64,000 nucleotides of DNA from Sphingomonas cavernae. GTDB taxonomy: Bacteria > Pseudomonadota > Alphaproteobacteria > Sphingomonadales > Sphingomonadaceae. Positions 46,841 through 63,916 of this stretch are shown in pieces (within the stretch, counting starts at the first letter, position 1; the number at the start of each line of letters is the position of its first letter). The DNA lies in NCBI RefSeq assembly GCF_003590775.1, contig NZ_QYUM01000003.1, positions 932,501-996,500 of the forward strand. The letters run 5' to 3'. Under the pieces are notes generated by a model that saw only the letters and a program-made list of their open reading frames with translations, was not told where the DNA came from and did no database searches. The translations under genes and the position numbers were made by a program.

Positions 46841-46918
46841 GTCACTCTCCGAAAAAAATGGCCAGCCTCCACAGGGGGGCTGGCCAGTCATCGTTTCATG
46901 CGGGGAAGCGCATGATGA

Positions 46919-49798: not shown

Positions 49799-49857
49799 TC
49801 CTCTTCTCCCCTTCTGCCGCCGGCTATCGCAGCGGTCCAGTGTTTCCTCACCGGTTA

Positions 49858-49871
49858 TGACACCGGTATCC
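49858..49871. promoter_or_regulatory. LacI-type operator site 1 (TonB receptor operon)
   Basis: TGACACCGGTATCC, one of five matches to TGACACCGGTTACC in the island. It lies 60 bases upstream of the receptor start. The local sequence CACCGGTTATGACACCGGTA also holds a partial second copy. Confidence 0.75.
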
Positions 49872-50010
49872 ATCCGAGTCGCAGCAACGCATTCACACGC
49901 GTTTCCGCAACGCAAAATTGGGGGAGTTTGGGCATTTTCGCGATGCGAGGGCCCCGTCCTCTCCCGTTGCGCCGCATTCATGCGGTCGATTTTCCGGTCA
50001 TTTGCGTCGA

Positions 50011-50024
50011 AGTAACCGGTGTCA
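50011..50024. promoter_or_regulatory. LacI-type operator site 2 (pectate lyase)
   Basis: AGTAACCGGTGTCA is the reverse complement of the consensus TGACACCGGTTACT. It is 62 bases upstream of the pectate lyase start codon. Confidence 0.75.
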
Positions 50025-50085
50025 TAAGGACATTGAGGCGAACCCCCTTCTATGTCAAGAAGGCAATGAGAGAGAGGATGGCGTT

Positions 50086-51429
50086 ATGCGTTTGATGTTG
50101 TTTCTGTGCCTCATGCTGGCGGGCGCGGCTCCTGCCGCCGCGCAAAAGCCCGCCTTTCCGGGGGCGGCAGGGTGGGCGGCCGAGACGCAGGGCGGCCGCG
50201 GCGGCCGCATCATTCGCGTGACCACGCTCAATCCCGAAGGCCCCGGCAGCCTGAAGGCCGCGCTCGAGGCCAGGGGGCCGAGGACGGTGGTGTTCGAGGT
50301 CGGCGGCGTGATCGATCTCGGTCGCTCCACGCTTACGATCACCGAACCTTATTTGACGATCGCCGGGCAGACGGCCCCATCACCGGGGATCACGATCATC
50401 CGCGGCGGGATCGATCTGAAAACGCATGACGTGATCGTGCGCCACATTCGCGTGCGCCCCGGCGTCGATGGACAGCCCAAACGTAGCGGCTGGGAGGTCG
50501 ACGCCTTTTCCACCGTCGGCGCGTACAATGTCATCGTCGATCACTGCACGATGACCTGGGGGCTCGACGAGAATCTCTCGGCTTCGGGGCCACGCTTCAC
50601 CGGCAGCACGCCCGCAGAATGGCGCAAGGGGACGTCGCACAACATCACCTTCTCGTACAACCTGCTCGCCGAGGGGCTTGCCAACGCCAGCCATCCCAAG
50701 GGCGAGCATTCGAAGGGCTCGCTGATCCACGACAATGCGACGGGCATCCTCATTTATCGCAACATTTACGCGCACAATGTCGAGCGCAGTCCGCTCTTGA
50801 AGGGCGGCGTCCAGGCCGCCGTGGTCAACAACCTCATCTATGATCCGGGCAAGCGCGCGGTGCATTACAACCTGATGGCGCTCGAATGGGCGGGGCATCC
50901 CTATCAGACGGGCGAGCTTTCGGCGGTCGGCAATGTCATGCGCGGCGGGCCTTCGACCGATGAAGGGCTTCCCTTCCTCATGCTCGGCGGCGATGGCGAT
51001 CTGCGCTATCACGGCCGCGACAATCTGGCGGTCGACAAGAATGGCAAGCCGCTGCCGATGTTCGGCCGCTATGGCGAAACGCGCGCGAAGCTGATCGAGA
51101 CGGACAAGCCGGTGATCTGGCCCGCAGAGCTCGACGTGTTGGCAGCGCGCGATGTCGAAACGCACGTGCTCGCCAATGCCGGTGCGCGACCCTGGGACCG
51201 TGACGAGCACGACATCCGCGTCCTCTTCTTCGTCGCCGAAGGGCGCGGTGAGATCATCGACGACGAGAAGCAGGTCGGCGGCTATCCGGTGTTCAAGGAA
51301 ACGCGCGCGCCCTTTGTCGAGACGGAATGGAACCTCGACACCATGGAGCCGAAATCAGGCCGCTATCCCGGCCAGAAGGGCCCCATCCAGGAGACCATGT
51401 CGAGCCGCGACCGCGCCATGCGCAACTGA
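50086..51429 (+). CDS. Secreted pectate lyase (right-handed beta-helix, PL1-like)
   Basis: A 447-residue secreted polysaccharide lyase. The signal peptide is short (MRLMLFLCLMLAGAAPAAAQ). The mature part shows the pectate lyase pattern: FPGAAGWAAETQGGRGG, GSLKAALEARGPRTVVFEVGG, NVIVDHCTMTWGLDENLS, KGTSHNITFSYNLLAEGL and RYPGQKGPIQETM. Such enzymes cleave polygalacturonate by beta-elimination to unsaturated oligomers, which feed KduI/KduD after further cleavage. ATG 50086 is preferred over upstream frame to 49918 because it opens the signal peptide, with GAGAGGATGGCGTT upstream. Confidence 0.9.
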   Translation: MRLMLFLCLMLAGAAPAAAQKPAFPGAAGWAAETQGGRGGRIIRVTTLNPEGPGSLKAALEARGPRTVVFEVGGVIDLGRSTLTITEPYLTIAGQTAPSPGITIIRGGIDLKTHDVIVRHIRVRPGVDGQPKRSGWEVDAFSTVGAYNVIVDHCTMTWGLDENLSASGPRFTGSTPAEWRKGTSHNITFSYNLLAEGLANASHPKGEHSKGSLIHDNATGILIYRNIYAHNVERSPLLKGGVQAAVVNNLIYDPGKRAVHYNLMALEWAGHPYQTGELSAVGNVMRGGPSTDEGLPFLMLGGDGDLRYHGRDNLAVDKNGKPLPMFGRYGETRAKLIETDKPVIWPAELDVLAARDVETHVLANAGARPWDRDEHDIRVLFFVAEGRGEIIDDEKQVGGYPVFKETRAPFVETEWNLDTMEPKSGRYPGQKGPIQETMSSRDRAMRN

Positions 51430-51827
51430 GGTCGAAGGGCATGGCCCACGGCACCTCGGCGGGTCGCGATAGCTAAAGTTCCGTGAACCGGAGACGCGGC
51501 TAGCACGGCCTCGGACGCGACGGGGTGATCCGGATCACAGTGAGCGATATCAATGTCAGCTTTGTCGTGGTTAGCGGACGTCTCGAACTCCCTCTCCCTC
51601 AAGGGAGAGGGTTGCGCAGACTTGGCGGCTGTGCCGCCTAGTCGGAGCTGGGTGAGGGGGCGTAAGTCAACGGCAACGCACGACTCCCGAGCTTCCGGCC
51701 CCTCATCCAACTCCGCCTAGCTGCGCTCACGCGCATCAAGGCTCCGTATCCTTCTCCCTTGAGGGAGAAGGTCTCCTTTTGGTCGAAAGACGACACACTT
51801 GCAAATCACAATGTTCCGCATTTGTTC
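51430..51827. other. Gene-free region with two small hairpins
   Basis: Nothing codes for a protein here. Two palindromes are visible: CCTCTCCCTCAAGGGAGAGG at about 51592-51611 and CCTTCTCCCTTGAGGGAGAAGG at 51749-51770. These CTCCCTC-type palindromes are typical of repetitive elements and may end the pectate lyase transcript. Confidence 0.5.
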
Positions 51828-51856
51828 TTGACATTGCGAACCATATTGGTTATATG
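51828..51856 (+). promoter_or_regulatory. Sigma-70-like promoter without an obvious gene
   Basis: TTGACA (51828-51833), 17-base spacer, TATATG (51851-51856). This is an unusually good match to the housekeeping consensus for this genome, yet no convincing ORF follows. It would start a transcript at about 51863. Confidence 0.55.
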
Positions 51857-52271
51857 AGGAGCCGTTCGCTGCATCCCTGATCAGCTTGCGGCGAACAGGC
51901 TTTCTCTTGTGGCGGTGTCACTCGAGAACGACCGGCGCGAAGTCATCCGGTATCAAAGACGAAGCTTCGCGTTATCGATCGCCGGCCCGATTTTCCGCCG
52001 GAGCGTCGCCCAACGGGCAAGACGGGACCGGGATCATGCGGCAGCGGGTCGTATGAGCCTGACCGGTCAGCGTGGCCCCGCACCGCGGCTTTCCGGTAGA
52101 CGGCCTTGTCCTTCGGGCCAAGGGTTCACGGTCTGAGGCCACCTGCTCGGAACGGGTTCGAACGGCGACCTCCTGAAAGCCTGGACGCTTTCGACTGAAT
52201 GCCAATGCCAAAGTCGTCCAGCCCGATGAGCCAATATGGCCTGTCTGGGGGGCAGGCCATATTGGCTCATC
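51857..52271 (+). ncRNA. Candidate untranslated RNA locus with terminal hairpin
   Basis: Downstream of the promoter at 51828 lies about 410 bases with little coding character. GTTCGCTGCA and TGCGGCGAAC pair as a hairpin at about 51865-51895. At the far end, GATGAGCCAATATGGCCTG (52225-52243) and CAGGCCATATTGGCTCATC (52253-52271) are exact complements, a 19-bp perfect stem with a 9-base loop. A 75-codon GTG ORF (51909-52136) resembles no protein I know. It does not match RNase P, tmRNA or 6S consensus segments I know. Candidate only. Confidence 0.3.
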
Positions 52272-52349
52272 CCGTGGCAAGGACGCGCCGGTCGCAACAG
52301 CCTGTCTTCATTTTACGGCACAAACATGCCCGTATTTCCAACAGCGGCA

Positions 52350-53924
52350 TCAACTCCCGGGCTGGATATACGGCACGCGCGCGAACAGCTCGCGTTCCCA
52401 TTGGCGCGGGTCGTTCATGGCGCGCGTCTGCCTGTCGAAAACCATCGTCGTGCGTTGGGGCAGTGTGTAGCCGGGCCAGTCGGGCAGATCGGCATGAGCG
52501 GGGCTTCCGGCGCGTGCGAGTGCGGCGAAGGCGCGCATCATCTGTTCGCTCACCCGCTGCGCATCGGCACCCGTTCCCGTCAGCGATCCTTCGGCGTCGA
52601 GCGTGCCGAACACCAGCGGAATGTCGTGCGTGTGCGGCGCGCCACGCTCCGGGCGGACGGGCGATGGGAAGTCGAGTTGATAGACCCAGGTCGCGCGGGC
52701 TCCTGCGCGCGCGCGGGCATCGGCCTCCTCAACCTGGCCGCGCCAGCTTCGCCCGGCCGTCGTCGCTGCATAGAAGATGTCGGCGGGCGAATAGCGCGGA
52801 TAGCGCTCGCGGAATTCGGCGACGACCCATTCGGGAAGTATGTCGATCTTCAGTTCGGGTGCGATCCGGTCCGCCAGATTATCCCAGTCGATCCCGACGA
52901 TCCTCGGATGATCGGGCCCGAAAAAGCCGCGCGTCTCGTCGTGCGTGTTGCCGAGGATCATCGGGATCGCGTTGGACTGCGGATTGGGATCAGGCCAGAA
53001 GGGATGGCGCGTCAGCCATTTCATGTCGAGCACCGGGCCCATATAGACACCACCGCCAAGCACCGGATCGGTTGCTTCGAGCGCCTCTACAAGCCGCTCG
53101 GTGGGCAGTTCGAGCAGCGCGTCGAGGTTCGTCTCGGCCACGCCGAGTGCGGCCAGATAAGCGCGGGTGCGCGCGGTGGCGTTGAGCGGTCCCGATGCGG
53201 TCACCTGCTGTCCGCTCATCGTGGCCGCACTGTGGAACAGCCCCTTGGCGGCGGGCATTCCCATCATCGTCGCGATCTTGGCGCCGCCGCCCGACTGGCC
53301 GAACACCATCACGCGCCCCGGATCGCCGCCGAATGCCGCGATATTGTCGCGCACCCATTGCAGCGCGAGGATGAGATCGAGCTGGCCGACATTGCCGCTA
53401 TCGGCAAAACGGGGGTCCAGCCGCGAGAGATACAGGTAGCCGAGCGCGTTCAACCGGTGATTGATCGTGACCACCACCGCGTCGCCGCGCGCCGCCAGGT
53501 GATGCCCGTAGTTGAGCGGGTCGATCACGCTACCCGTCGAATAGGCGCCGCCATGGATATAGACCATCACCGGACGTCTGGCGCGCGGATCGGTCTCGGG
53601 CGTCCAGATATTGAGGAACAGGCAGTCCTCGCTCGTCCTCGCATAGCGATCGCCCTTTTGCGGGCACGATGCAGCGAATTCGACGGCCTGTTGGATGGAG
53701 TGCGTGGCCTTGGGCGCGGCGGCTGCGCGGAAGCGGTGCTGGCGCGTGTCCTCGCCATAACGAATCCCGCGAAAGACCTTTACGCCGTGCTCGCTGAGCC
53801 CGGCATACCGGCCGCCAGCAGCGCGCACATCGGCCGAGGGTTTTGCGGACAATATGGCAGGCGCGACGCCGAACGCGAGCCCGCCCGCGAGCGCCGCGCG
53901 GCGTGTCAGCCTAGCGGCGAACAT
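52350..53924 (-). CDS. Type-B carboxylesterase, Tat-signal
   Basis: A 524-residue esterase of the cholinesterase-like type B family. The twin-arginine signal is ARLTRRAALAGGLAFGVAPA. The family motifs are EDCLFLNIWTPE, the oxyanion GGAYSTGSV, the nucleophile elbow MVFGQSGGGAKIA, an acid residue late in the sequence, and a histidine near HTHDIPLVFG. It overlaps the kdgK stop by 14 bases as the last gene of the uxaC operon. It may remove ester groups from pectin or hemicellulose, an inference from context. The gene ends 79 bases from the hairpin at 52225-52271. Confidence 0.87.
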   Translation of the reverse strand: MFAARLTRRAALAGGLAFGVAPAILSAKPSADVRAAGGRYAGLSEHGVKVFRGIRYGEDTRQHRFRAAAAPKATHSIQQAVEFAASCPQKGDRYARTSEDCLFLNIWTPETDPRARRPVMVYIHGGAYSTGSVIDPLNYGHHLAARGDAVVVTINHRLNALGYLYLSRLDPRFADSGNVGQLDLILALQWVRDNIAAFGGDPGRVMVFGQSGGGAKIATMMGMPAAKGLFHSAATMSGQQVTASGPLNATARTRAYLAALGVAETNLDALLELPTERLVEALEATDPVLGGGVYMGPVLDMKWLTRHPFWPDPNPQSNAIPMILGNTHDETRGFFGPDHPRIVGIDWDNLADRIAPELKIDILPEWVVAEFRERYPRYSPADIFYAATTAGRSWRGQVEEADARARAGARATWVYQLDFPSPVRPERGAPHTHDIPLVFGTLDAEGSLTGTGADAQRVSEQMMRAFAALARAGSPAHADLPDWPGYTLPQRTTMVFDRQTRAMNDPRQWERELFARVPYIQPGS

Positions 53925-54921
53925 CCAGTTCGCCCGACAGGAAGGCTTCGATATCAGCGCGGCCGAACAGGCTGGCGTCGCCGGGCAGCGAGTGCTTCAG
54001 GCAGGTAAGTGCGAGTCCCGAGCGCACCGTCCAGTCCGCGTCTGCGCCGATATGCAGACCGTGGAGCACACCTGCGGCGAAGGCGTCGCCCGCGCCGATC
54101 CGGTCGACGATTCCGGCGACGACGACCTCGTCGGTCTGATGCGCGCCCTCGCGCGTGTCGATCCGCGCGGCGATGCGGTGCCGGTCGGCGTCATCGACAT
54201 GACGCGCCGTGGACGCGATCAGTTTGAGCCTTGGGAAGGCCGCAAAGGCGGCTTCGGCAGCTTCTCGCCGCCGTTCCGGGCCGTCACCGTGGAAGGTGTC
54301 GCCAAGCAGCAGCGATACGTCGCGGTGGTTGCCGAACAGCACGTCGGCATGGTCGACAAGTTTGGTCAGGACCGCCTTCGGATCGCTGTCCCAGCTTTCC
54401 CACAGACGCGCACGATAGTTGCCGTCGAAGGACACAGGCACGCCAAGCGCCGAAGCCGTTTCGGCGGCTGCAATCGCGGCGGCTGCCGTCGCGGGGCCGA
54501 GCGCGGGCGTGATGCCCGAGAGATGCAACCGGCTTGCGCCGTTCAGCAGCGCGGGCCAGTCGAAGACGCCCGCGGGCGCTTCGGCGAAGCTTGAATGCGC
54601 GCGGTCATAGACGACCTCCGAGGCGCGCAAGCCCGCGCCGGGCGTCAGGAAATACAGTCCCATCCGCCCATCGCGTCGCTGCACCGCGCTGCAATCGACG
54701 CCGTGCCCGCGCAGCGCATCGATCGCCGCCTGGCCAAGCGGATTGTCGGGCGCCGCGCTCACCATCTTCGTGTCGTGACCGAGCCGCGCGAGCCCCACCG
54801 CGACATTCGCTTCCGCGCCGCCGACATGTACGTCGAGCCTGCCCGACTGGAGCAGCAGCTCGCGCCCCGGCGCGGTCAGCCGCAAGAGCAGCTCTCCGAA
54901 GAAGACGATGCGACCAGCCAA
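53911..54921 (-). CDS. kdgK: 2-keto-3-deoxygluconate kinase
   Basis: A PfkB-family sugar kinase of 336 residues that phosphorylates 2-keto-3-deoxygluconate to KDPG. Motifs: IVFFGELLLRLTAPGRELLL (family start), GGAEANVAVGLARLGHD, and the second PfkB signature DRIGAGDAFAAGVLHGL with the catalytic Asp in GAGDAF. The start is TTG at 54921, right after GGGGGATCGC; no ATG lies nearby, and the longer frame to 55173 is inside kduD in another phase. Between kduD and the carboxylesterase in a minus-strand operon. Confidence 0.88.
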   Translation of the reverse strand: MAGRIVFFGELLLRLTAPGRELLLQSGRLDVHVGGAEANVAVGLARLGHDTKMVSAAPDNPLGQAAIDALRGHGVDCSAVQRRDGRMGLYFLTPGAGLRASEVVYDRAHSSFAEAPAGVFDWPALLNGASRLHLSGITPALGPATAAAAIAAAETASALGVPVSFDGNYRARLWESWDSDPKAVLTKLVDHADVLFGNHRDVSLLLGDTFHGDGPERRREAAEAAFAAFPRLKLIASTARHVDDADRHRIAARIDTREGAHQTDEVVVAGIVDRIGAGDAFAAGVLHGLHIGADADWTVRSGLALTCLKHSLPGDASLFGRADIEAFLSGELDVRR

Positions 54922-54935
54922 GCGATCCCCCTTTA

Positions 54936-55691
54936 TCAGCGTGCGAGCCAGCCGCCGTCTACAGCCAGGATATGGCCTTGAACATAGTCCGCGGCGGAGG
55001 ATGCAAGGAATACGGCCGCGCCCCCCAGATCCTTGGGCCGGCCCCAACGGCCCGCCGGGATACGCTCCATGATCTGGCGGTTGCGCGTCTCGTCGTCCTG
55101 CAGCGCTGCCGTATTGTTCGTGGCAATATAGCCCGGCGCGATCGCGTTGACGTTGATGCCCTCTGCCGCCCATTCATTGGCGAGCAGCTTGGTGAGCCCG
55201 CCGATCCCGCTTTTCGACGCGGTGTAGCTAGGCACGCGTATCCCGCCCTGAAAGGTCAGCATCGAGGCGATGTTGATGATCTTGCCGCCGCCGTTCGGGA
55301 TCATGTGCCGCGCGGCCGCTTGGGCCAGAAAGAACACCGATTTGAGGTTGGTGTCGATCACCGCATCCCAGTCTTCTTCGGTGAAGTCGATGCTGTCGGC
55401 GCGGCGGATGATCCCCGCATTGTTAACGAGAATGTCGAGGCGGCCGAGCTTGTCGACCGTCTCTTTCACGATGCGATCGGCGGGCTCGATCGTCGACAGA
55501 TCGGCGCTGATGATCTCGGCGCACCGCCCCATCGAACGTGCCTTGGTGACGGTCTCTTCGGCGGCGGAGCGCCCCACCGCCGCAATGTCCGCGCCCGCCG
55601 CGGCGAGCGCCAGCGCAATGCCCTGGCCGATACCCGTATTGGCGCCCGTGACGACCGCCACCTTGCCCGAAAGATCGAAGAGACTGTTCAT
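54936..55691 (-). CDS. kduD: 2-dehydro-3-deoxy-D-gluconate 5-dehydrogenase KduD
   Basis: A short-chain dehydrogenase that reduces 2,5-diketo-3-deoxygluconate to 2-keto-3-deoxygluconate. The 251 residues show the NAD-binding VVTGANTGIGQGIALALA, the NNAG motif, and the catalytic Ser-Tyr-Lys (MLTFQG preceded by NIAS; YTASKSG). The C-terminal AVFLASSAADYVQGHILAVDGG is usual for the family. ATG 55691 begins MNSLFDLSGK; ATG 55706 is a possible alternative five codons upstream, close to a repeat edge. The gene is between kduI and kdgK. Confidence 0.93.
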   Translation of the reverse strand: MNSLFDLSGKVAVVTGANTGIGQGIALALAAAGADIAAVGRSAAEETVTKARSMGRCAEIISADLSTIEPADRIVKETVDKLGRLDILVNNAGIIRRADSIDFTEEDWDAVIDTNLKSVFFLAQAAARHMIPNGGGKIINIASMLTFQGGIRVPSYTASKSGIGGLTKLLANEWAAEGINVNAIAPGYIATNNTAALQDDETRNRQIMERIPAGRWGRPKDLGGAAVFLASSAADYVQGHILAVDGGWLAR

Positions 55692-55707
55692 GGGTTCATT
55701 CTTCATT

Positions 55708-55781
55708 CCGTTCGTCCCGAGCGAAGTCGAGGGACTTTGTAATCGCGCTGACGTGTCTCGACTTCGCTCGACACGAACGGG
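55708..55781. repeat. Dispersed palindromic repeat, copy 2
   Basis: Starts CCGTTCGTCCCGAGCGAAG and ends GCTCGACACGAACGGG. The sequence is related to 9163-9238 in inverse orientation, showing that the family is spread through the genome. It separates kduI from kduD inside the operon, so it would be transcribed. Confidence 0.8.
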
Positions 55782-55795
55782 TTATGATGGTTCGA

Positions 55796-56635
55796 TTACT
55801 GCAACTGGCAGATGTCGAGGACATTCATGTCGGTATAGTCCTGATTCTCGCCCGCCATCGCCCAGATAAACGCGTACGCTTTGGTGCCCGAACCCATATG
55901 GATCGACCAGGGCGGCGAGATGACTGCCTCCTCGTTGCCCATCACGATATGCCGCATCGCCTCGCCCTCGCCCATATAGTGGAAGACGCGGTCATTGGGG
56001 CCTTCGAGTTCGAAGTAGAAATAGATCTCGCTGCGCCGCTCGTGAATGTGCGGGGGCATGGTGTTCCAGACGCTGCCGGGCTTGAGTACGGTCAGTCCCA
56101 TGACGAGCTGCGCGCTGTCGCACACACCCGGGATGACGAGCTGGAAGATCGTGCGCTCATTCGATTCTTCGAGGCTGCCGCGCTCGAGCGCATTGGCGTC
56201 GGCGATCGAGAGTTTGCGCGTGGTGAAGGCTTTATGCGCGGGGCAGGAGGCGAGATAGAAGCGTGCGCCTTCGCCCGAAAACAGCACCTCCTTCGCGCCC
56301 ATCGTCACATACAGGCAGTCCTTGTTGCCAAGCACGAAGGTTTCGCCGTCGACGGTGACCGTACCCTCGACCGAGCCGACGTTGACCACCGCAAGCTCGC
56401 GGCGCTCAAGGAAGGGGTGGCCGGCTGCCGAGGGCGGCTCGGTCTGGTCGGGCAGCTTCACGGCGGCGCTGGTAACGTGGACACCGCCGATCACGAAGCG
56501 ATCGGCATGGGTGTAGTTCAGCACGCACTCGCCCGCGCGAAAAAGGTTCGAGATCAGATACCGATCGCGAAGTTCTTCGTTGGAGACGCACTCCATCATG
56601 TCGGGGTGCGTGGCATAATAGGTGCGATCGAACAT
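55796..56635 (-). CDS. kduI: 5-dehydro-4-deoxy-D-glucuronate isomerase
   Basis: KduI converts 5-keto-4-deoxyuronate, from unsaturated uronates, to 2,5-diketo-3-deoxygluconate. The 279-residue protein matches the cupin-like KduI family: [30 protein letters not shown], the zinc-site segment [18 protein letters not shown], and [19 protein letters not shown]. All family motifs look intact. It sits 24 bases after uxaC and before kduD, so the unsaturated branch and the galacturonate branch are co-transcribed. Confidence 0.95.
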
Positions 56636-56659
56636 CGTCTACTCCGTTAAGCAATTTAT

Positions 56660-58108
56660 TCAGGCTGCCGCGGCAACCGGGGGGAATTCGGGATCGTCGA
56701 GCTTATAGGCCTTCTTCACCAGCCCATAGGCCAATTCCTGCGCCAGTTCCGCGGCCTCCCATTCGGCCAGCCGGTGCTCGGCGACGAGGCGGGCGAGGAA
56801 GGCGCAATCGACGCGGCGCGCGACGTCGTGGCGCGCGGGGATCGAGAGGAAGGCGCGCGTGTCGTCGTTGAAACCGACGGTGTTGTAGAAGCCGGCGGTC
56901 TCGGTGGTCATCTCGCGGAAGCGGCGCATCCCTTCGGGGCTGTCATGGAACCACCAGGAAGGGCCGAGTTTCAGGCAAGGATAATGCCCGGCAAGCGGTG
57001 CGAGTTCACGCGCATAGGTCGATTCATCGAGCGTGAACAATATGATCGAAAGCCGCGTTTCGGTGCCAAAACGGTCGAGCAGGGGCTTCAGCGCATGGAC
57101 ATAGTCAGTGCGCGTCGGAATGTCGGCGCCCTTGTCTCGTCCATGGCTTTCGAACAGCACGCGATTGTGATTGCGGCATGATCCCGCATGGATCTGCATC
57201 ACCATGCCGTCCTCGACGCTCATCGCGGCGAATTCTGTCAGCATCTGCGCGCGGAACAGTTCGGCGTCGGCGGGCGTCCAGTTGCCGGTTGCGATCTGAC
57301 GGAATAGCCGCTCTGCCTCGCCGGCCGAAAGATTGGCGGTGGCGGCGGTGGGGTGGCCATGGTCGGTCGCCGTGGCACCCGCCGCGCGGAAATCGGCGCG
57401 GCGCTTGCGATGCGCCGCCAGATAGCCGCGCCAGTCATAGACGTCTTCGCCGCTCAATTCGGCAAAGCGCGCCATCGCGACCGCGAAGTCGTGATGCTCG
57501 GGATCGACCACTGCATCGGGGCGGTAGGTGGTGACGATCCGGCCCCGCCAGCCCGAGGCGCGGATTGCGGCGTGATGGTCGAGGGGCTCGTGCGCGCCCT
57601 CGGTCGTTGCGAGCAACTCGATCCCGAAACGGTCGAAGAGCGCACGGGGGCGAAAGGCTGGAGTCGCCAGCGCCGCTCCGATCGCATCGAAATACGCGTC
57701 GGCGGTGTCGGCGGACAGCGCCGTGTCGAAACCGAAGACCTCTGCGAAAACATGATCGAGCCAGATGCGCGAAGGCGTGCCGCGAAAGAGGTGGTAGTGC
57801 GCAGAAAACAGCCGCCATGCCTCGCGAGGATCGGTCGCAGGCACCCCGTTGCGGTCGGGAACCCCGAGCGCGTCCAGTGTGACACCCTGACTGTAGAGCA
57901 TGCGGTAAAGATAGTGGTCGGGCGCGAGCAGCAATTCGGTCGCATTGGTCCAGGGCGCGTCGCTCGCGAACCAGGCGGGATCGGTATGGCCGTGCGGGCT
58001 GATGATGGGGAGGGCCGCCACCTCGCGGTAAAGCGCGCGCGCAATGTCCCGCGTGCGTGCATCTGCCGGAAACAGGCGATCCTCATTCAATTTCAGCGGC
58101 CTTGTCAT
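56660..58108 (-). CDS. uxaC: Uronate isomerase
   Basis: UxaC interconverts galacturonate and tagaturonate, or glucuronate and fructuronate. The 482-residue TIM-barrel protein starts with LNEDRLFPADARTRDIARAL and the metal-binding ISPHGHTDPAWF, followed by TLDALGVPDRNG and the family signature AGSCRNHNRVLFESHGRDK. C-terminal residues VGFNDDTRAFLSIPARHDVA match the family. First gene of the kduI-kduD-kdgK-carboxylesterase operon, 41 bases after operator site 3. Confidence 0.95.
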   Translation of the reverse strand: MTRPLKLNEDRLFPADARTRDIARALYREVAALPIISPHGHTDPAWFASDAPWTNATELLLAPDHYLYRMLYSQGVTLDALGVPDRNGVPATDPREAWRLFSAHYHLFRGTPSRIWLDHVFAEVFGFDTALSADTADAYFDAIGAALATPAFRPRALFDRFGIELLATTEGAHEPLDHHAAIRASGWRGRIVTTYRPDAVVDPEHHDFAVAMARFAELSGEDVYDWRGYLAAHRKRRADFRAAGATATDHGHPTAATANLSAGEAERLFRQIATGNWTPADAELFRAQMLTEFAAMSVEDGMVMQIHAGSCRNHNRVLFESHGRDKGADIPTRTDYVHALKPLLDRFGTETRLSIILFTLDESTYARELAPLAGHYPCLKLGPSWWFHDSPEGMRRFREMTTETAGFYNTVGFNDDTRAFLSIPARHDVARRVDCAFLARLVAEHRLAEWEAAELAQELAYGLVKKAYKLDDPEFPPVAAAA

Positions 58109-58148
58109 CGCTCTCCCGAGTCCCTTGGTGCGGACTTGATGGGTTATT

Positions 58149-58162
58149 GGTAACCGGTGTCA
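58149..58162. promoter_or_regulatory. LacI-type operator site 3 (uxaC operon)
   Basis: GGTAACCGGTGTCA, an exact reverse complement of the consensus, lies 41 bases upstream of the uxaC start and downstream of the lacI-type gene. Confidence 0.8.
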
Positions 58163-58203
58163 GAAAATTGTTCAAGGCGGAAAGCCCGGCTATTGCCCGG
58201 CGT

Positions 58204-59250
58204 TCAATCGACTTTGGGCGGAGGCGCCACCGACGCGCGCCGGATCAGCGACGAAAGGAAAATCGCGGGCTCCGCGGCTGCGTTGCCCTGGCCGGTCGCA
58301 TCGCCGACGAGCTTCAGCGCCGCCGACCGCGCCATCGCAGCAATCGGCCAGCGGACGGTGGTGAGCGGTGGCCAGATATGCGCCGCGATCGGATTGTCGT
58401 CGAAGCCGATCACAGACAGATCGCGTGGAACCTCGAGCCCTCGCTGGCGTGCGGCATGGATCACGCCCGCCGCCATCTCATCGTTCGATGCAAAGATCGC
58501 GGTGGGGCGGGGGAGGTGGTCGAGCAGCCGGTCGCCCGCGGCAAGCCCCGATTCAAAGGTGTAGTTGCCGTCAGCGGTCAGGCTGGCCGGAAGCGCGATC
58601 CCGGCGGCGGCAATGGCGTCCTCGAAACCCTGGCGTCGTTCCCGCGCAGAGCGGAAACCGTGCGGGCCAAGCACCAGCCCGATGCGCCGGTGCCCCGTCT
58701 CGATCAGATATTGGGTCGCCGCACGCACCGCCTCGCGGTCGTTGGACGCGACCATATGCTCGGACGCGTCAAGTTCGGCCGAACCCATGCGCACGTAGTG
58801 GCAGCCGATTTCATCGCACAATGCTGCGAGCTCGTCGTTCTCCGAGATCGGCGGCATCAGCATCACCCCGAACAGCCGCTGGCGCTCGAGGAAGCGGCGT
58901 ATGTCGTCGAGCATCGTCGGTGAGCCGCGATTGACGGGGTGAATGACGAGTTCGAACTCTGTTTCGCGCAGCGTCTCCAAAATGCCCTGTTGCACGCTGA
59001 GCACGGTCTGCGCGGTCGGGTTGTCGTGGACCAGGCCGATCAGGAAATTGCGCCTCAGCGCCAGCGCGCGTGCTTGCGGATTGGGGATGTAGCCGAGATC
59101 GTCGATCACACCGAGCACGCGTTTGCGCGTATCGTCGTTGAGCAACGGCGAGTGGTTGATGACTCGGCTGACGGTCTTTTTGGAAACCCCGGCAAGCCGG
59201 GCGACATCGTTGATCGTCGGTTGAGCGCTTTTTTTCATGGGCAATTGCAT
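58204..59250 (-). CDS. LacI-family transcription regulator of the pectin/uronate genes
   Basis: A 348-residue repressor. The N-terminal helix-turn-helix is typical: TINDVARLAGVSKKTVSRVI, followed by the hinge NPQARALALRR. The effector domain is of the periplasmic-binding-protein type (LFGVMLMPPISENDELAAL; RRIGLVLGPHGFRSARERRQG; AIFASNDEMAAGVIHAARQR; SVIGFDDNPIAAHIWPPLTT). Located between the uxaC operon and uxaA, it is the best candidate for binding the five TGACACCGGTTACC sites. The likely inducer is a uronate or KDG, inferred. ATG 59250 (MQLPMKKSAQ) is chosen; ATG 59238 is the alternative. The longer frame to 59319 covers operator 4. Confidence 0.93.
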   Translation of the reverse strand: MQLPMKKSAQPTINDVARLAGVSKKTVSRVINHSPLLNDDTRKRVLGVIDDLGYIPNPQARALALRRNFLIGLVHDNPTAQTVLSVQQGILETLRETEFELVIHPVNRGSPTMLDDIRRFLERQRLFGVMLMPPISENDELAALCDEIGCHYVRMGSAELDASEHMVASNDREAVRAATQYLIETGHRRIGLVLGPHGFRSARERRQGFEDAIAAAGIALPASLTADGNYTFESGLAAGDRLLDHLPRPTAIFASNDEMAAGVIHAARQRGLEVPRDLSVIGFDDNPIAAHIWPPLTTVRWPIAAMARSAALKLVGDATGQGNAAAEPAIFLSSLIRRASVAPPPKVD

Positions 59251-59303
59251 AGCTGTTCGTCCCGTTCGCGCCAATCGCCCCTGACGGGAATTGCGTCGTG
59301 CAC

Positions 59304-59317
59304 TGACACCGGTTACC
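59304..59317. promoter_or_regulatory. LacI-type operator site 4 (lacI-type gene and uxaA)
   Basis: TGACACCGGTTACC, a full match to the consensus, lies between the divergent regulator gene (54 bases upstream of its start) and uxaA (26 bases upstream of its start), so it may control both. Confidence 0.8.
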
Positions 59318-59342
59318 AAAGAAGCAAGGAAAGGATCAAGTC

Positions 59343-60833
59343 GTGACCGAATCTGCGATCATCAGGATCACCCCGGAGGACAGCGTCGGGACGACCTTGC
59401 GGGCCGTTGCGGTCGGCGAAACGCTGAGCGTCGGGGATGCAACGCTGATCGCTGCAGAGGCCGTGCCCGCGGGACACAAGATCGCGCTGCGGTCGATTCG
59501 ATCGGGTGATCCGGTGATCAAGTTCGGCTTTCCGATCGGCACCGCGTCTTCGGCGATTTCGGCGGGCGCGCATGTGCACAGCCACAATCTGGCGACAGCG
59601 CTCGCGGGCACGCAAGGCTATCGCTACATGCCCGATCCGTTTCCGTTGACGAAGCGCGATCAGCCACAGCGAAATTTCGAGGGCTATTTGCGCGCCGATG
59701 GCCGCGCGGCGACGCGCAACGAGATCTGGGTGTTGCCGACCGTCGGATGCGTGGCCCGCACGGCCGAGAAGATCGCGGCGAGCGCACATGCGCGCCATCG
59801 CGGTACGGTCGACGGCGTCTATGCCTTCAAGCATCCTTTTGGCTGCTCGCAGCTTGGCGATGATCTCGGGGCGACGCGCACGGTGCTGGCCGGGCTAGCC
59901 AGCAATCCGAACGCCGCCGGTGTCCTGATCGTGGGGCTGGGGTGCGAATCCAATCAGACGTCAGCGCTTCTGGAGACGATCGCGCCCGAAATCCGGCGCA
60001 ATATCCGCGTGCTGGGCGCGCAGCAGGCAGGCGACGAGGTGGCCGATGGTGTGGCGTTGGTCGACGCGCTTGTCGCCAGTGCCTCTTTTGCAAGGCGGAC
60101 GACGATCGCACTCGACAAGCTCGTCATAGGTGTGAAATGCGGCGGGTCCGACGGCTATAGCGGGCTGACCGCCAATCCGCTGGTGGGACGAATCAGCGAC
60201 GCCGTGACCGATGCCGGGGGCACCGCGATTCTGACCGAAATACCCGAAATATTCGGGGCGGAGGAACTGCTCATGCGCCGTGCCGCCGATGAGCATGTGT
60301 TCGACGCCACGGTGGCGCTTGTGAACAGTTTCAAGCGCTATTTCATCGGGCACGGCGAGCCTGTTTCGGAAAATCCGTCGCCGGGGAATATCGCGGGCGG
60401 AATCACGACGCTTGAGGAAAAATCGCTGGGGGCGGTGCAAAAGGCCGGCCATGCACGCGTCACCGATGTGCGATTATATGGCGAGCGCGTGCGGCACCCC
60501 GGACTCACTCTGCTTGAGGCGCCGGGCAACGATGCGGTCTCTTCGACCGCGCTCGCGGCGGCGGGTGCAACATTGATCCTGTTCACCACCGGCCGGGGAA
60601 CACCGCTCGGTTTTCCTGTGCCGACGATCAAGATCGCATCCAATAGCGAACTTGCGGCGCGCAAGCCCGGCTGGATAGACTTTGATGCGGGAAGCGCGCT
60701 CACCCATGGTTTCAACGCTGCGACGGACGCGCTTTTGGATGTAGTGCTGGCGACAGCGTCGGGAACGCCGACCGCAGCCGAACGCAATGACGAGCGCGAG
60801 ATAGCCCTGTGGAAGCGGGGAGTAACCTTGTGA
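59343..60833 (+). CDS. uxaA: Altronate dehydratase
   Basis: UxaA dehydrates D-altronate to 2-keto-3-deoxygluconate. The 496-residue protein has the N-terminal SAF domain (AEAVPAGHKIALRSIRSGDP; HVHSHNLATAL) and the C-terminal GD-AH domain (VGCVARTAEKIAASAHARHR; FGCSQLGDDLGATRTVLAG; GLGCESNQTSALLETIAPE). The iron-binding KCGGSDGYSGLTANP motif is present. It starts with GTG at 59343, 92 bases from the regulator start. The reductase that produces altronate (UxaB) is not in the window. Confidence 0.95.
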   Translation: MTESAIIRITPEDSVGTTLRAVAVGETLSVGDATLIAAEAVPAGHKIALRSIRSGDPVIKFGFPIGTASSAISAGAHVHSHNLATALAGTQGYRYMPDPFPLTKRDQPQRNFEGYLRADGRAATRNEIWVLPTVGCVARTAEKIAASAHARHRGTVDGVYAFKHPFGCSQLGDDLGATRTVLAGLASNPNAAGVLIVGLGCESNQTSALLETIAPEIRRNIRVLGAQQAGDEVADGVALVDALVASASFARRTTIALDKLVIGVKCGGSDGYSGLTANPLVGRISDAVTDAGGTAILTEIPEIFGAEELLMRRAADEHVFDATVALVNSFKRYFIGHGEPVSENPSPGNIAGGITTLEEKSLGAVQKAGHARVTDVRLYGERVRHPGLTLLEAPGNDAVSSTALAAAGATLILFTTGRGTPLGFPVPTIKIASNSELAARKPGWIDFDAGSALTHGFNAATDALLDVVLATASGTPTAAERNDEREIALWKRGVTL

Positions 60834-60862
60834 GCGGAGCTCTTCCGAGCACCGCTGTCTAG

Positions 60863-61717
60863 TCACTCTTCAATGTCGATGTCGGCGGTGAGCACGACGG
60901 GCTTGCCCCGTGGAAGGTTGACCGGCGTCGCTCCCGGCCAGACGCAATTCTGCATGCTTTTTTCGCGACGCAGGATCCAGGCGGTGATGGGCTTGCCGTT
61001 CACCGCGCACCGCATGACGACGGCGCGGGGGAGAGAGGCGGGAGCGGAATCCCAGCTAAACCGCATCTCCTGACCCGCCGGCACCGCCTGCCGCCGTGCT
61101 TCGACCGGTTTGCCAAGGCTTTCGAAGCGGAGTCGTTCGGCATCGCGCAGCCTGAGCGAGATCCCGCCATAACCCTTGTCGTCCGCACTGCCGCCAAGCG
61201 CCAGGCCGTCGACGAGCGGAACCAGCGTCAGGCGAAGGCTCAGTCCGTTTTCGCTTATGCGGATATCGGCGCTTTCGCGCAGCACTGCGCGGCCGGCCAC
61301 GATCCAATCGGTCGTCATCGTGCCGCGTGCGCCGTGATCCGTCACCTTGCTCGAAACGGGTTTGAAGGTCATCCCCGTCAAAAGCCAGCCGTCAGCGCTT
61401 TGCGCGCCGTCGAGCACAATCTGATGCCATGCCCAGAAAAATCCGCGATGATGGATGTGATCCTCGGGATAGAGTTCGGTCAGAACCGTTCCCCTCGCGC
61501 TGAGCAGCGGATGCACGAAGGCGGCGGGCGGCGTCGCTCCGGCAGCCGTCAGCTTCGGATCGGGCGCTGCAAGCGGCACGAGTTGCGCCACGCGCCGGCC
61601 TTCACGCTGCAGCCACAATCCATCCCGCGGTGCGGCCGGTGGCGACGTGCCCGCGCATGCGGAGAGGAGGAGAGTGCCCAATGCCGCCATGCCGGACAGC
61701 CACGAAACAGGCTTCAT
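60863..61717 (-). CDS. PmoA-family (DUF6807) lipoprotein
   Basis: A 284-residue lipoprotein with lipobox LLSAC at residue 17-21. The mature part resembles the PmoA/DUF6807 family: LTELYPEDHIHHRGFFWAWH, GGISLRLRDAERLRFE, and the C-terminal CVWPGATPVNLPRGKPVVLT. The IHHRGFF motif is the family's hallmark. These proteins occur in polysaccharide loci and their role is unclear. It is divergent from the hydratase across operator site 5. Confidence 0.8.
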   Translation of the reverse strand: MKPVSWLSGMAALGTLLLSACAGTSPPAAPRDGLWLQREGRRVAQLVPLAAPDPKLTAAGATPPAAFVHPLLSARGTVLTELYPEDHIHHRGFFWAWHQIVLDGAQSADGWLLTGMTFKPVSSKVTDHGARGTMTTDWIVAGRAVLRESADIRISENGLSLRLTLVPLVDGLALGGSADDKGYGGISLRLRDAERLRFESLGKPVEARRQAVPAGQEMRFSWDSAPASLPRAVVMRCAVNGKPITAWILRREKSMQNCVWPGATPVNLPRGKPVVLTADIDIEE

Positions 61718-61736
61718 CGCATTGCCTTCTTGCCAA

Positions 61737-61750
61737 TGACACCGGTTTCC
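61737..61750. promoter_or_regulatory. LacI-type operator site 5 (PmoA-family lipoprotein and hydratase-transporter)
   Basis: TGACACCGGTTTCC differs from the consensus at one base. It lies between the divergent lipoprotein gene (20 bases upstream of its start) and the hydratase gene (50 bases upstream of its start). Confidence 0.75.
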
Positions 61751-61799
61751 AATACGTCAGTTGAAAGCAATCGACAAGCAGTCAGGGGAGTAGCCGAGG

Positions 61800-62615
61800 G
61801 TGGAAGAGTCGCAGGCCGGACTGGAGCAGGACCGGATCGCAGAAGCCTTTGTATCGGCGCGTCGCGCTGCTCGCGGCCTTTCCGACTATCCCGGAAACAT
61901 TCCGGAATCTCTGAAATCTGCCTATTCTGTGCAGGATGTAGCGATCCGCCTCCAGGGCGATTCGGTCGCGGGATGGAAGGTCGGTCGCATCATGCCGCCG
62001 CTCGACGCGCAGTTCGGCGCCGATCGCCTTGCCGGTCCAATCTTCGTCGCGGGTGTTTTTTTTGAGGGGGATGGGAAACCGGTTTCCATGGCGGTCTTTC
62101 AGGACGGATTCGGCGCGGTCGAAGCCGAGTTTCTGCTGCGGATCGGCACGCAACTCGATCCTGCCAAGCGATACTATTCGCTCGAGGAAGCCGCTGACGC
62201 GATCGATGCGGTTCATGTCGGATTGGAGATTGCGAGCTCGCCGCTTGGCGCGATCAACGATCTCGGGCCGGCGGTAACCGCTTCGGATTTCGGCAATAAT
62301 AACGGCCTCGTTATCGGCGCCGCCATTCCGGATTGGCAGAATTCGGGATTCGCGACGTGGCCGGTGACTCTCGCCATCGACGGCGCGGAAATCGGCACAG
62401 GTCGCGGCGACAGCATGCCCGACGGACCGGTCGGCGCGGCTCGTTTTCTGTTCGAGCTGATGGCCCGGCGGGGGATCGCGCTCCAAAAGGGGCAGTGGAT
62501 ATCGTCCGGTGCGATCACCGGCGTCCATCGCGTGGCGCCGGGCGCGTCGGTTGAGGCGCGCTTCGGTGCGGACTATGCGGTGCGTTGCACGATAGAGGCG
62601 GCGACCGCTCGATAA
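61800..62615 (+). CDS. 2-keto-4-pentenoate hydratase-like protein (FAH superfamily)
   Basis: A 271-residue protein of the hydratase/FAH fold. Recognisable segments are GDSVAGWKVGRIMPPLD, FGAVEAEFLLRIG, AVHVGLEIASSPL, and KGQWISSGAITGVHRVAPG. The acidic metal ligands are the Glu pair in VEAEF and Glu in GLEIAS. In a uronate operon under the same operator, a 2-keto-3-deoxy sugar acid is a natural candidate substrate, but no hydratase of this type has an assigned place in the classic pathway. GTG 61800 follows GCCGAGG. The transporter gene follows 14 bases later. Confidence 0.8.
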   Translation: MEESQAGLEQDRIAEAFVSARRAARGLSDYPGNIPESLKSAYSVQDVAIRLQGDSVAGWKVGRIMPPLDAQFGADRLAGPIFVAGVFFEGDGKPVSMAVFQDGFGAVEAEFLLRIGTQLDPAKRYYSLEEAADAIDAVHVGLEIASSPLGAINDLGPAVTASDFGNNNGLVIGAAIPDWQNSGFATWPVTLAIDGAEIGTGRGDSMPDGPVGAARFLFELMARRGIALQKGQWISSGAITGVHRVAPGASVEARFGADYAVRCTIEAATAR

Positions 62616-62629
62616 ACGGGAGTAACAGG

Positions 62630-63916
62630 ATGACCTCGATCGAGGCAGAAGGTGTCGCTACGGCCGCTGCACGCGCTGGCCGCTACCGCTGGGTGATCGT
62701 CGGACTGCTCTTCGTCGCCACCGCCATCAACTATGTCGATCGGCAGATGATCGGCGTGCTCAAGCCGACGATTCTCGGCGATCTCGGTTGGACCGAGACC
62801 GACTATGCGAATGTCATCTTCTGGTTTCAGGCGGCCTACGCCATCGGCTATATCGGCTTCGGGCGTCTGGTCGACGTGGTCGGCGCGCGGCTCGGCTATG
62901 CGGTGGCCTTTGTTATCTGGCAACTGGCGCATATCGCGCACGGCGGCGCCTATTCGGTCACGCAGTTCGCGATGGCGCGCTTCGGGCTTGGCATTGGCGA
63001 AGCGGGCAATTTCCCGGCGGGCATCAAGGCGGTCACCGAATGGTTCCCCGGCAAGGAGCGGGCCTTCGCCATCGGCGTATTCAATGCCGGCGCCAATGTC
63101 GGCGCGATCATCACACCCATTCTGGGCATGACCCTCGTCCCCGCCGTCGGCTGGCGCGCCGCCTTCGTCATCACGGGCGTTGCGGCGTTTGTCTGGCTGA
63201 TCGCCTGGTGGATCATGTACCGTCACCCGCGCCAGCATGCCAAAGTTTCGGCGAGCGAGCTTGCCTGGATAGAGCAGGATCCCGCCGATCCCGTGATCCC
63301 GATCGCCTGGCGCAAGCTTATCGGCATCAAGGAAACCTGGGCCTATGCGCTCGGCAAGTTCTTCATTGATCCGATCTGGTGGTTCTTTCTGTTCTGGCTG
63401 CCGGGTTATCTTGGCACGCGCTATGGGCTGGACCTGATGACCTTCGGACCACCGCTCATCGCCATCTATCTTTTGTCCGACGTTGGCAGCATCGCCGGGG
63501 GCTGGATGTCATCGCGCCTGATCAAGGCGGGCAGGACGGTCAACGCGGCGCGCAAGATCACGATGCTGGTTTGCGCGATTGCGGTTTTGCCGATCTTTTT
63601 CGCGCAGTCGATCGACAATCTCTGGCTGGCGGTTCTCGTGATCGGCATTGCAACGGCCGCGCATCAGGCGTTTTCCGCCAATCTCTATACGCTGCCTTCG
63701 GATGTGTTCCCGCGCGGCGCAGTGGGCTCGGTGGTGGGCATCGGAGGCACCGTCGGCGCGATCGGCGGCATGCTGATGGCGAAATATGCGGGTTTCATCC
63801 TCGACAGCTTCGGCACCTATACGCCGCTGTTTGCGGTGGCGGGCAGCGCATATTTCCTCGCGTTGCTGGCGGTGCATCTACTCTCGCCCAGACTCGACCG
63901 CGTCGAACCGCGCTGA
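62630..63916 (+). CDS. exuT: MFS hexuronate transporter (ExuT-like)
   Basis: A 428-residue transporter with 12 hydrophobic helices. It carries major facilitator family signatures: GFGRLVDVVGARLGYA near residue 75, ARFGLGIGEAGNFPAGIKAV, FFLFWLPGYLGTRYGLD and GSVVGIGGTVGAIGGML. This is the anion:cation symporter subgroup that includes ExuT. ATG 62630 follows GGGAGTAACAGG and gives an N-terminus of normal length; the frame opens at 62585. It is co-transcribed with the hydratase and is likely to import hexuronates. Confidence 0.88.
   Translation: MTSIEAEGVATAAARAGRYRWVIVGLLFVATAINYVDRQMIGVLKPTILGDLGWTETDYANVIFWFQAAYAIGYIGFGRLVDVVGARLGYAVAFVIWQLAHIAHGGAYSVTQFAMARFGLGIGEAGNFPAGIKAVTEWFPGKERAFAIGVFNAGANVGAIITPILGMTLVPAVGWRAAFVITGVAAFVWLIAWWIMYRHPRQHAKVSASELAWIEQDPADPVIPIAWRKLIGIKETWAYALGKFFIDPIWWFFLFWLPGYLGTRYGLDLMTFGPPLIAIYLLSDVGSIAGGWMSSRLIKAGRTVNAARKITMLVCAIAVLPIFFAQSIDNLWLAVLVIGIATAAHQAFSANLYTLPSDVFPRGAVGSVVGIGGTVGAIGGMLMAKYAGFILDSFGTYTPLFAVAGSAYFLALLAVHLLSPRLDRVEPR

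Follow-up and report, generated by a model that had tools for sequence, protein, structure and literature searches.

The window, that is the whole stretch of 64,000 nucleotides of Sphingomonas cavernae that was analysed, contains an island of genes that match functions of pectin and uronate use. On the minus strand, a TonB-dependent receptor (46919-49798, TIGR01782 above cut-off) has a GH43 glycosidase downstream of it (45203-46891, Pfam). A PelZ-like pectate lyase gene, pel, lies on the plus strand at 50086-51429 (NF041900 at 374.8 bits, below the curated cut-off of 840). A further minus-strand unit comprises the UxaC uronate isomerase (56660-58108, NF002794 above cut-off), KduI (55796-56635, NF002091 above cut-off), KduD (54936-55706, TIGR01832 above cut-off), a KDG-kinase-like sugar kinase (53911-54936 with an approximate start, below curated cut-offs) and, as its last gene, a carboxylesterase (52350-53924, Pfam). 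The minus strand also encodes the presumed repressor, a LacI-family protein of 348 aa (58204-59250; Pfam LacI E 1.3e-18, Peripla_BP_3 E 1.6e-39), in which PF00356 (residues 12-57) and PF13377 (residues 180-341) each exceed the gathering score. Against the NCBIfam models the protein gave no match above a cut-off. Pfam showed no IclR domain in it; besides its LacI-type and periplasmic-binding-protein-like domains there was an HTH match below threshold. On the plus strand we found a UxaA-type sugar-acid dehydratase (59343-60833; TIGR03248, galactarate dehydratase, 253.5 bits, below the cut-off of 730.85), whose substrate would, from its context, be altronate. A 2-keto-4-pentenoate-hydratase-like enzyme (61800-62615) and an MFS transporter (62585-63916; it matches the D-galactonate transporter subfamily best, though below cut-off) lie on the same strand, and the two genes presumably belong to one unit. 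A DUF6807 protein with an N-terminus judged by eye to be lipoprotein-like (60863-61717, Pfam) is on the minus strand.

Putative operators and their placement

The first-pass annotation had proposed five 14-bp operators of a LacI-type regulon, and all five were found at the proposed positions as matches to the consensus TGACACCGGTTACC with at most two mismatches. Site 1 (TGACACCGGTATCC, 49858-49871, plus strand, two mismatches, matrix score 23.8) and site 2 (TGACACCGGTTACT, 50011-50024, minus strand, one mismatch) lie between the TonB receptor and pel. The exact consensus is present both at site 3 (58149-58162, minus strand), which would serve the uxaC unit, and at site 4 (59304-59317, plus strand) between lacI and uxaA, so that the regulator's own gene is preceded by a site. 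Site 5 (TGACACCGGTTTCC, 61737-61750, plus strand, one mismatch) lies between the DUF6807 and hydratase-like genes. With three mismatches allowed, the window holds 11 matches, compared to 2.37 +/- 1.70 in shuffles (shuffle maximum 8).

With gene starts picked by eye, the coordinate differences are 60 (site 49858 to the TonB-receptor ATG at 49798), 62 (site end 50024 to the pel start at 50086), 41 (58149 to the uxaC start at 58108), 26 (site end 59317 to the uxaA start at 59343), 54 (59304 to the lacI ATG at 59250), 20 (61737 to the DUF6807 start at 61717) and 50 (site end 61750 to the hydratase-like start at 61800). The distances of 20-62 bases given earlier are therefore reproduced, but the assignment of sites to the nearest gene is probably crossed between the TonB receptor and pel. 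The site at 50011 is probably the receptor's operator, because its orientation and distance are as at the receptor sites of relatives (58 forward, 18 reverse, median 204 bp, in the best 80 of 564 loci). A TTGACA at 50053-50058 is at offset -34 to -29 from it towards the receptor. It is plausible that the five sites serve every promoter visible in the island.

Rarity of the sites in the host genome

Allowing one mismatch, there are five sites in the host genome (4.24 Mb), four of which are inside the island, which makes up 0.28% of the genome (binomial P = 3e-10, a value that ignores genome relatedness). An equal or higher density of the motif elsewhere, which had been named as evidence against the regulon, is thus not seen at one mismatch. 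Allowing two mismatches, the count of 22 sites is at the background level given by the reversed control (19). A two-mismatch match by itself therefore proves nothing, and we dropped the two-mismatch genome scan as evidence.

We then scored the window and the 17 loci of off-island matches with a matrix built from 245 sites of relatives. The five window sites scored 23.8-32.3, and the best score across the 17 loci was 18.9. Three off-island matches were rejected as regulon members: C2:872801 (one mismatch) is inside a 547-aa open frame that matches no Pfam family, C3:531148 (score 18.9) is inside a TonB-receptor frame, and C4:230000 (score 18.0) adjoins a frame that likewise has no Pfam match. 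The sole Mannitol_dh-family match, C3:829204, has no site at score 13 in the surrounding 20 kb, and uxaB (tagaturonate reductase) was accordingly not placed in the regulon; this match lies near a second uxaC of the host genome. A search of the host genome for Glyco_hydro_88 (GH88/GH105) gave no match.

Conservation at the loci of relatives

The sample of relatives consisted of 80 loci around lacI orthologues, the best 80 of the 564 found, and all counts in this section refer to these best 80 of 564. A gene copy was scored as site-bearing when at least one site in the same locus had been assigned to a gene of that name. The loci contain 280 sites with at most two mismatches, compared to 5 for the reversed control. 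A subset of 20 loci was also scanned with 40 column-permuted motifs; these gave means of 0, 0.1 and 2.2 matches at zero, one and two mismatches, and the motif itself gave 23, 29 and 17. A position at most 300 bp upstream of a regulon gene (lacI, uxaC, uxaA, hydratase-like, TonB receptor and pectate lyase among them) was found for 245 of the 280 sites; 7 are inside genes and 28 have no gene assignment, 13 of the latter being exact. Sites stand upstream of 67/80 lacI copies (13 without), 33/42 uxaC copies (9 without), 32/34 uxaA copies and 60/70 hydratase-like copies. No site was found within 300 bp of the starts of kduD (0/59), kdgK (0/54) or GH43 (0/14). The placement upstream of the first genes of units, with operon-internal genes lacking a site, is therefore kept in relatives. 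The hydratase-like gene is present in 71 of the 80 loci, the highest count among the twelve genes that were looked for in addition to lacI.

The orientation is forward at all hydratase-like (63/63), uxaC (33/33), kduI (16/16) and esterase (10/10) sites, and 63 of 70 lacI assignments are in reverse. We did not take this constancy to prove a directional element, because in our judgement the gene groups amount to no more than about four independent promoters.

Co-occurrence with the regulator

An exact site is present in 42 of the 43 same-family genomes with an orthologue of the 58204 regulator and in 7 of the 106 without (Fisher P = 1.6e-28, ignoring genome relatedness). The orthologue count comprises 42 genomes with E <= 1e-110 and G052, included with a match over residues 10-233 only (E 3.2e-79). 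Outside the family but within the class, seven genomes with orthologues of 49-52% identity were compared, and six of them retain the operator; in G152, with a 49%-identical orthologue, there is no site in the surrounding 20 kb. Within the family, G091 has a 64%-identical orthologue and neither an exact nor a one-mismatch site in its genome, the best score in 20 kb around the orthologue being 10.8. Together with the placement at the first genes of units, this co-occurrence and the retention in other families lend support to the LacI-type regulon proposed earlier. From sequence comparison, we consider it very probable that the LacI-family protein at 58204-59250 uses the five sites as its operators; it would bind TGACACC|GGTWWCC and repress the pectin and uronate units and its own gene.

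A different LacI paralogue or a global sugar regulator might instead bind these sites, with the neighbouring lacI a mere target. At least two further LacI proteins of the host (41-44% identity) have recognition helices (SMKTVSRVFN, SIKTVSRVLN) similar to that of the 58204 regulator (SKKTVSRVIN), and a related TGACA half lies nearby. However, the 20-kb surroundings of two host paralogues have no site at matrix score 13, and the motif tracks the 58204 orthologue. In 19 genomes of the family the LacI matches are all more distant (E <= 1e-60), and just one of these genomes, G140, has an exact site. A second search of the seven exact-site genomes without an orthologue (G006, G071, G115, G133, G140, G141, G142) gave none, the best identity being 41%. 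In G141, sites stand at uxaC/uxaA and at TonB receptor/pel, yet the nearest LacI protein is 36% identical, which favours a paralogue; this 99%-complete draft has regulon genes without a detected regulator. The site-bearing stretches of G115 and G133 contain none of thirteen genes sought. Overall, we consider binding by another regulator quite unlikely.

One genome, G072, has 32 one-mismatch matches, compared to 1 in the reversed control. An expanded regulon was rejected here: all 18 sites in the 16 stretches examined are inside open frames of at least 200 aa, several plainly unrelated by eye, and we treated the matches as an over-represented word. Open frames of this length are common in G+C-rich DNA.

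Operator symmetry

The operator has an even length and a CG centre. Its consensus is symmetric in the ACCGGT core and in the G/C pair at +/-6, and asymmetric at positions -7 and -4. The symmetry around CC/GG described earlier therefore holds for the core and this pair and fails at the outer positions, the perfect palindrome TGACACCGGTGTCA having 0 exact matches in the best 80 of 564 loci. This count comes from a separate symmetric scan, which is the fair test, because column counts are biased towards asymmetry when the sites behind them were collected with the asymmetric consensus. A single perfect TGACACCGGTGTCA was seen in another family, upstream of a TonB receptor (L182).

Sites adjacent to paralogues in the host genome look symmetric (TGACAnCGnTGTCA), and TGACAATGCTGTCA stands 16 bp before the C4 paralogue. 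The paralogues would be expected to bind such TGACAnCGnTGTCA-like sites. Like the pectin operator, these have the TGACA half and usually the central CG, and they are placed at a TonB receptor or the paralogue's own gene; unlike it, they are near-symmetric, and their base at -2 varies where the pectin operator has C. A symmetric TGACACCGGTGTCA would fit the paralogues' sites in the same cell, and one may speculate, though we regard it as rather doubtful, that the asymmetry was selected, one half having diverged to GGWWACC for insulation of the pectin regulon from the paralogues or for an affinity low enough to allow induction.

Promoter register

Putative promoter elements were compared to the site positions. 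For uxaC, a -35 TTGAAC (58170-58175) and a -10 TACCAA (58147-58152) lie on the minus strand, the -10 overlapping the operator, and this register (TTG at -13, TA at 10) recurs at 30/33 uxaC, 16/16 kduI and 9/10 esterase sites of the best 80 of 564 loci. For the hydratase-like gene, TTGCCA (61730-61735) and TACGTC (61753-61758) lie on the plus strand with the operator within the spacer; the register (TTG at -7, TA at 16, N17) is kept at 58/63 sites of the same best 80 of 564. The uxaA pair (TTGCGT at 59291-59296, TACCAA at 59314-59319, plus strand) is weak and its register is not conserved, being present at 2/30 uxaA sites of these best 80 of 564, where no single register was found for uxaA (best offset 5/30) or the TonB-receptor sites (1/58). 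The overlap of the operator with a TTG-N17-TA pair in fixed register at several promoters suggests repression by promoter occlusion.

The regulator could alternatively activate, or do both, as some LacI-family members (Cra, CcpA) activate from upstream sites. At uxaC, kduI, esterase and hydratase-like genes, however, the operator overlaps the putative -35 and -10 boxes or lies in the spacer separating them, a position from which a bound protein would be expected to obstruct polymerase, and we find activation quite improbable at these clear-register groups and overall. The 14-mer might also be a promoter or sigma-factor element whose orientation reflects reading by RNA polymerase, as its near-constant orientation and its asymmetry, resembling a promoter box, would allow. 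The TTG/TA pairs of 17-bp spacing are nevertheless at two different offsets, -13 and -7, which argues against the 14-mer being a fixed polymerase box in its own right, and lacI is served in reverse. The sigma-54 consensus is TGGCAC-N5-TTGC, and by inspection the 14-mer (TGACAC-N3-TT) does not match its spacing; we hold this explanation to be very improbable. Chance similarity in a G+C-rich genome, with which the two-mismatch genome count agrees, is practically dismissed by the same promoters bearing sites in the best 80 of 564 loci and controls almost none.

Discussion

Repression by the LacI-family protein would work as follows. Bound at the five sites, the regulator would cover core promoter elements and thereby repress the TonB receptor/GH43 and pectate lyase units (pectin uptake and cutting), the uxaC-kduI-kduD-kdgK-esterase and uxaA units (unsaturated and plain uronates) and the hydratase-like/MFS unit (transport), with operon limits as predicted here. 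It would repress its own gene from the site upstream. Release would come from an intermediate at which the branches meet; we lean towards 2-keto-3-deoxygluconate as the simplest candidate inducer, and otherwise a uronate.

In soft-rot enterobacteria, a single regulator, KdgR of the IclR family, controls pectinases, uptake and uronate/KDG catabolism. The working proposed here is similar, and the protein families are unrelated. Ravcheev et al. 2014 (PMC4052901), in whose main text 'Sphingo' does not occur, reported autoregulation in 72% of the LacI regulators they studied and list 6 orthologous groups for glucuronate and galacturonate (ExuR, KdgR, UxaR, UxuR). The local sugar-catabolic regulons described there likewise have even pseudo-palindromes with a central CG, autoregulation, sites shortly upstream of starts and control of one sugar pathway. 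Their motifs are described as palindromic, with strongly conserved inverted repeats and a length of 16-22 nt where even, whereas the present one has 14 bp and asymmetric outer positions. By description in the available text (PMC5507952), UxuR2 of Algoriphagus is also a LacI-family regulator of hexuronate genes (galacturonate and glucuronate), in another phylum and with a TRAP transporter. The TonB-receptor carbohydrate loci of Xanthomonas and Caulobacter similarly include a TonB receptor gene that neighbours genes for pectin methylesterase and pectate lyase, and the available text of Blanvillain et al. 2007 (PMC1790865) names no pectin operator or pectin LacI regulator. The operator was not found in titles and abstract starts of open-licence literature; a search of this literature by operator letters gave only papers on evidently other subjects.

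Since many related bacteria carry matching sites at the corresponding genes, the site set is well supported as a genetic switch of an ordinary kind. It provides sphingomonads with a candidate operator for pectin use that is ready to test, and the operators offer a way of annotating pectin genes. The conserved hydratase-like enzyme is flagged as a likely part of the pathway and may perform an unrecognised step of uronate breakdown. The asymmetric operator and the near-symmetric paralogue sites in one genome would form a simple system for studying how LacI proteins avoid cross-talk.

Predicted operators and their surroundings

All five 14-bp sites that the first-pass annotation had proposed as operators of a LacI-type regulon were found in the window exactly where claimed, at 49858(+), 50011(-), 58149(-), 59304(+) and 61737(+), and their distances of 20-62 bases from presumed start codons were borne out as coordinate differences. 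The surrounding genes serve the use of pectin and uronates and encode a TonB receptor, GH43, pectate lyase, carboxylesterase, a KDG-kinase-like protein, KduD, KduI, UxaC, LacI, a UxaA-type dehydratase, a DUF6807 protein, a hydratase-like protein and an MFS transporter. Since such genes flank the sites, the island spans about 45203 to 63916 and so exceeds the limits first given. The regulator gene (58204-59250, minus strand) probably starts at ATG 59250 rather than at TTG 59319, which falls at the operator itself.

Two of the sites, 49858 and 50011, lie between the TonB receptor and pel. The proposed assignment of 49858 to the receptor and of 50011 to pel is probably crossed, or else both sites serve both genes, because a TTGACA is met at offset -34 when site 50011 is read in the direction of the receptor, and because relatives' receptor sites mostly share the orientation of 50011 (58 forward, 18 reverse), with a median distance of 204 bp. 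A second core, CACCGGTTA, adjoins site 49858 at 49849-49857, its ACCGGT being 12 bp from the site's own.

The 2-keto-4-pentenoate-hydratase-like protein (61800-62615) has a weak NCBIfam match (43 bits, the cut-off being 350) and no Pfam match; its EAE and lysine stretches match up in an alignment with 2-keto-4-pentenoate hydratase. The gene occurs in 71 of the best 80 of at least 564 relatives' loci, usually with its own operator.

Motif counts in the host genome

With at most one mismatch, the whole host genome (G000, 4.24 Mb, in which the window occupies C3:932501-996500) holds five sites, four of them in the island (binomial P 3e-10), so that at this level the motif is not equally or more dense elsewhere. 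With at most two mismatches there are 22 sites against 19 in the control, which is background; site 49858, having two mismatches to the consensus, would therefore not suffice alone. It is backed by its place, by a matrix score of 23.8 and by differing at just one position from the common TTTCC form. The sole other one-mismatch site (G000:C2:872801) is close to the beginning of an open frame of 547 aa, which had no Pfam match and resembles, judged by eye, secreted pectate-lyase-like proteins.

Conservation among relatives

Relatives were sought with an alignment of 26 orthologues. At least 564 were found and the best 80 loci, of up to 21 kb each, were retained; 76 of the 80 are labelled as Sphingomonadales, and the remaining four come from two unresolved proteobacterial bins, one Rhodocyclaceae bin and one 'Bacillus'. 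This last contig, labelled Bacillus sp. 2B10, carries a lacI 69% identical to the host gene and is probably a mislabelled or contaminated record.

These best 80 loci contain 97 exact, 120 one-mismatch and 63 two-mismatch sites, against 0, 0 and 5 for the reversed control. In 20 of the loci, the real motif had 23, 29 and 17 sites, and 40 permuted versions averaged 0, 0.1 and 2.2 (largest 0, 2 and 8). A recognised regulon gene begins within 300 bp downstream of 245 of the 280 sites; seven, all two-mismatch, are inside regulon genes, and 28 have no assignment. Thirteen of these 28 are exact, five of which lie farther upstream of a TonB receptor on the same strand.

A gene copy entered the count when its match started no later than residue 60 and was more than 45% identical. 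In the same best 80 loci, sites precede lacI in 67/80 copies, uxaC in 33/42, uxaA in 32/34, the hydratase-like gene in 60/70, the TonB receptor in 40/41 and pel in 12/12. The fractions are 16/55 for kduI, 10/67 for the esterase and 6/58 for MFS, and no site was found upstream of kduD (0/59), kdgK (0/54) or GH43 (0/14). Where uxaC is not next to lacI, kduI or the esterase may take the adjoining place (e.g. loci L100 and L152). The one locus without a site of at most two mismatches, L154, has TGACACCGGTATCG before lacI.

Promoter register

Taking the first T of the 14-mer as offset 0, a TTG-N17-TA pair stands at -13/10 in relatives' uxaC (30/33), kduI (16/16) and esterase (9/10) sites, and at -7/16 in hydratase-like sites (58/63). 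The first register places the TA of the -10 box within the operator, and every uxaC, kduI and esterase site has A at offset 11; in the second register this TA falls beyond the operator, and 94% of the sites have T at offset 11. With the operator at fixed offsets to these pairs, a bound regulator dimer would block polymerase at these promoters. No single register was found for uxaA or TonB-receptor sites (best 5/30 and 1/58).

Co-occurrence of site and regulator

The orthologue is present in 43 of 149 family genomes, one of them (G052) by partial match. Exact TGACACCGGTTWCC occurs in 42 of these 43 genomes vs 7 of the 106 others, and a repeat search of the seven site-only genomes found no orthologue in any. 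The draft genome G141 has operators at uxaC/uxaA and at TonB receptor/pel, and no regulator orthologue was found in it, which slightly lowers the confidence in the LacI-type reading. In genomes G043 and G123 about 15 kb separates the regulator from the sites, and the link is therefore independent of adjacency. A class-wide sample of 289 genomes gave seven orthologues (49-52% identity) from outside the family. At six of these loci, spread over four other families, the same operator is retained and stands at hydratase-like, uxaC, kduD or lacI positions; for the seventh (49%), no operator and no neighbouring genes of the regulon are present within 20 kb.

One family genome, G072, holds 32 one-mismatch copies of the 14-mer vs 1 in the control, and all 18 copies within fetched stretches fall inside open frames. 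A second uronate cluster of the host (G000:C3:812500-832400) comprises uxaC (65%), MFS, a mannitol-dehydrogenase-family (uxaB/uxuB-like) gene and a LacI paralogue; the pectin operator is absent from it. The pectin island itself yielded no reductase gene of this type.

Symmetry and paralogues

The symmetry described for the operator holds for its core and breaks down at the outer positions. The halves differ at positions -7 and -4 (T/G and C/A), in column counts that are biased by the search consensus. An unbiased scan of the best 80 of at least 564 loci found no exact TGACACCGGTGTCA or GGTAACCGGTTACC and one GGAAACCGGTTTCC, within a coding region; the exact asymmetric forms number 97 and 77. 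Eighteen sites differ from TGACACCGGTGTCA at one position, and 12 of the eighteen precede TonB receptors or lacI. Symmetry is evidently tolerated in some places, since in another family (L182) a receptor is preceded by a perfect TGACACCGGTGTCA.

The perfect palindrome GGAAACCGGTTTCC in the window (62074-62087) is inside the hydratase-like gene, 337 bp past the fifth operator, and is also present in the closest relative among the best 80 loci (L084:5760). It is possibly an auxiliary site or a coding coincidence.

At most one mismatch from TGACAnCGnTGTCA, the host genome has 14 places (reversed control 0). One of them, a one-mismatch place, stops 16 bp short of the LacI paralogue on contig C4. 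The sole perfect one stops 38 bp short of a TonB receptor, which is some 1.8 kb away from the paralogue on C3; several others appear to fall within coding frames. The asymmetric operator, set against TGACAnCGnTGTCA-like sites near paralogues, suggests a possible insulation between paralogues.

Discussion

LacI-family motifs are palindromes, the even ones 16-22 nt long with mostly a CG centre, according to Ravcheev et al. 2014 (PMC4052901), who also give autoregulation for 72% of the LacI-family regulators studied and assign six groups to glucuronate and galacturonate. The operators described here agree with that kind, save for length and strict symmetry.

Conservation at regulon genes and co-occurrence with the orthologue support the LacI-type reading proposed earlier, and the five sites are very probably operators of the regulator encoded at 58204-59250. 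In its working the predicted regulon is similar to the enterobacterial KdgR regulon, but its regulator belongs to an unrelated protein family. Judged from these genomic comparisons, the regulon is real and well conserved.
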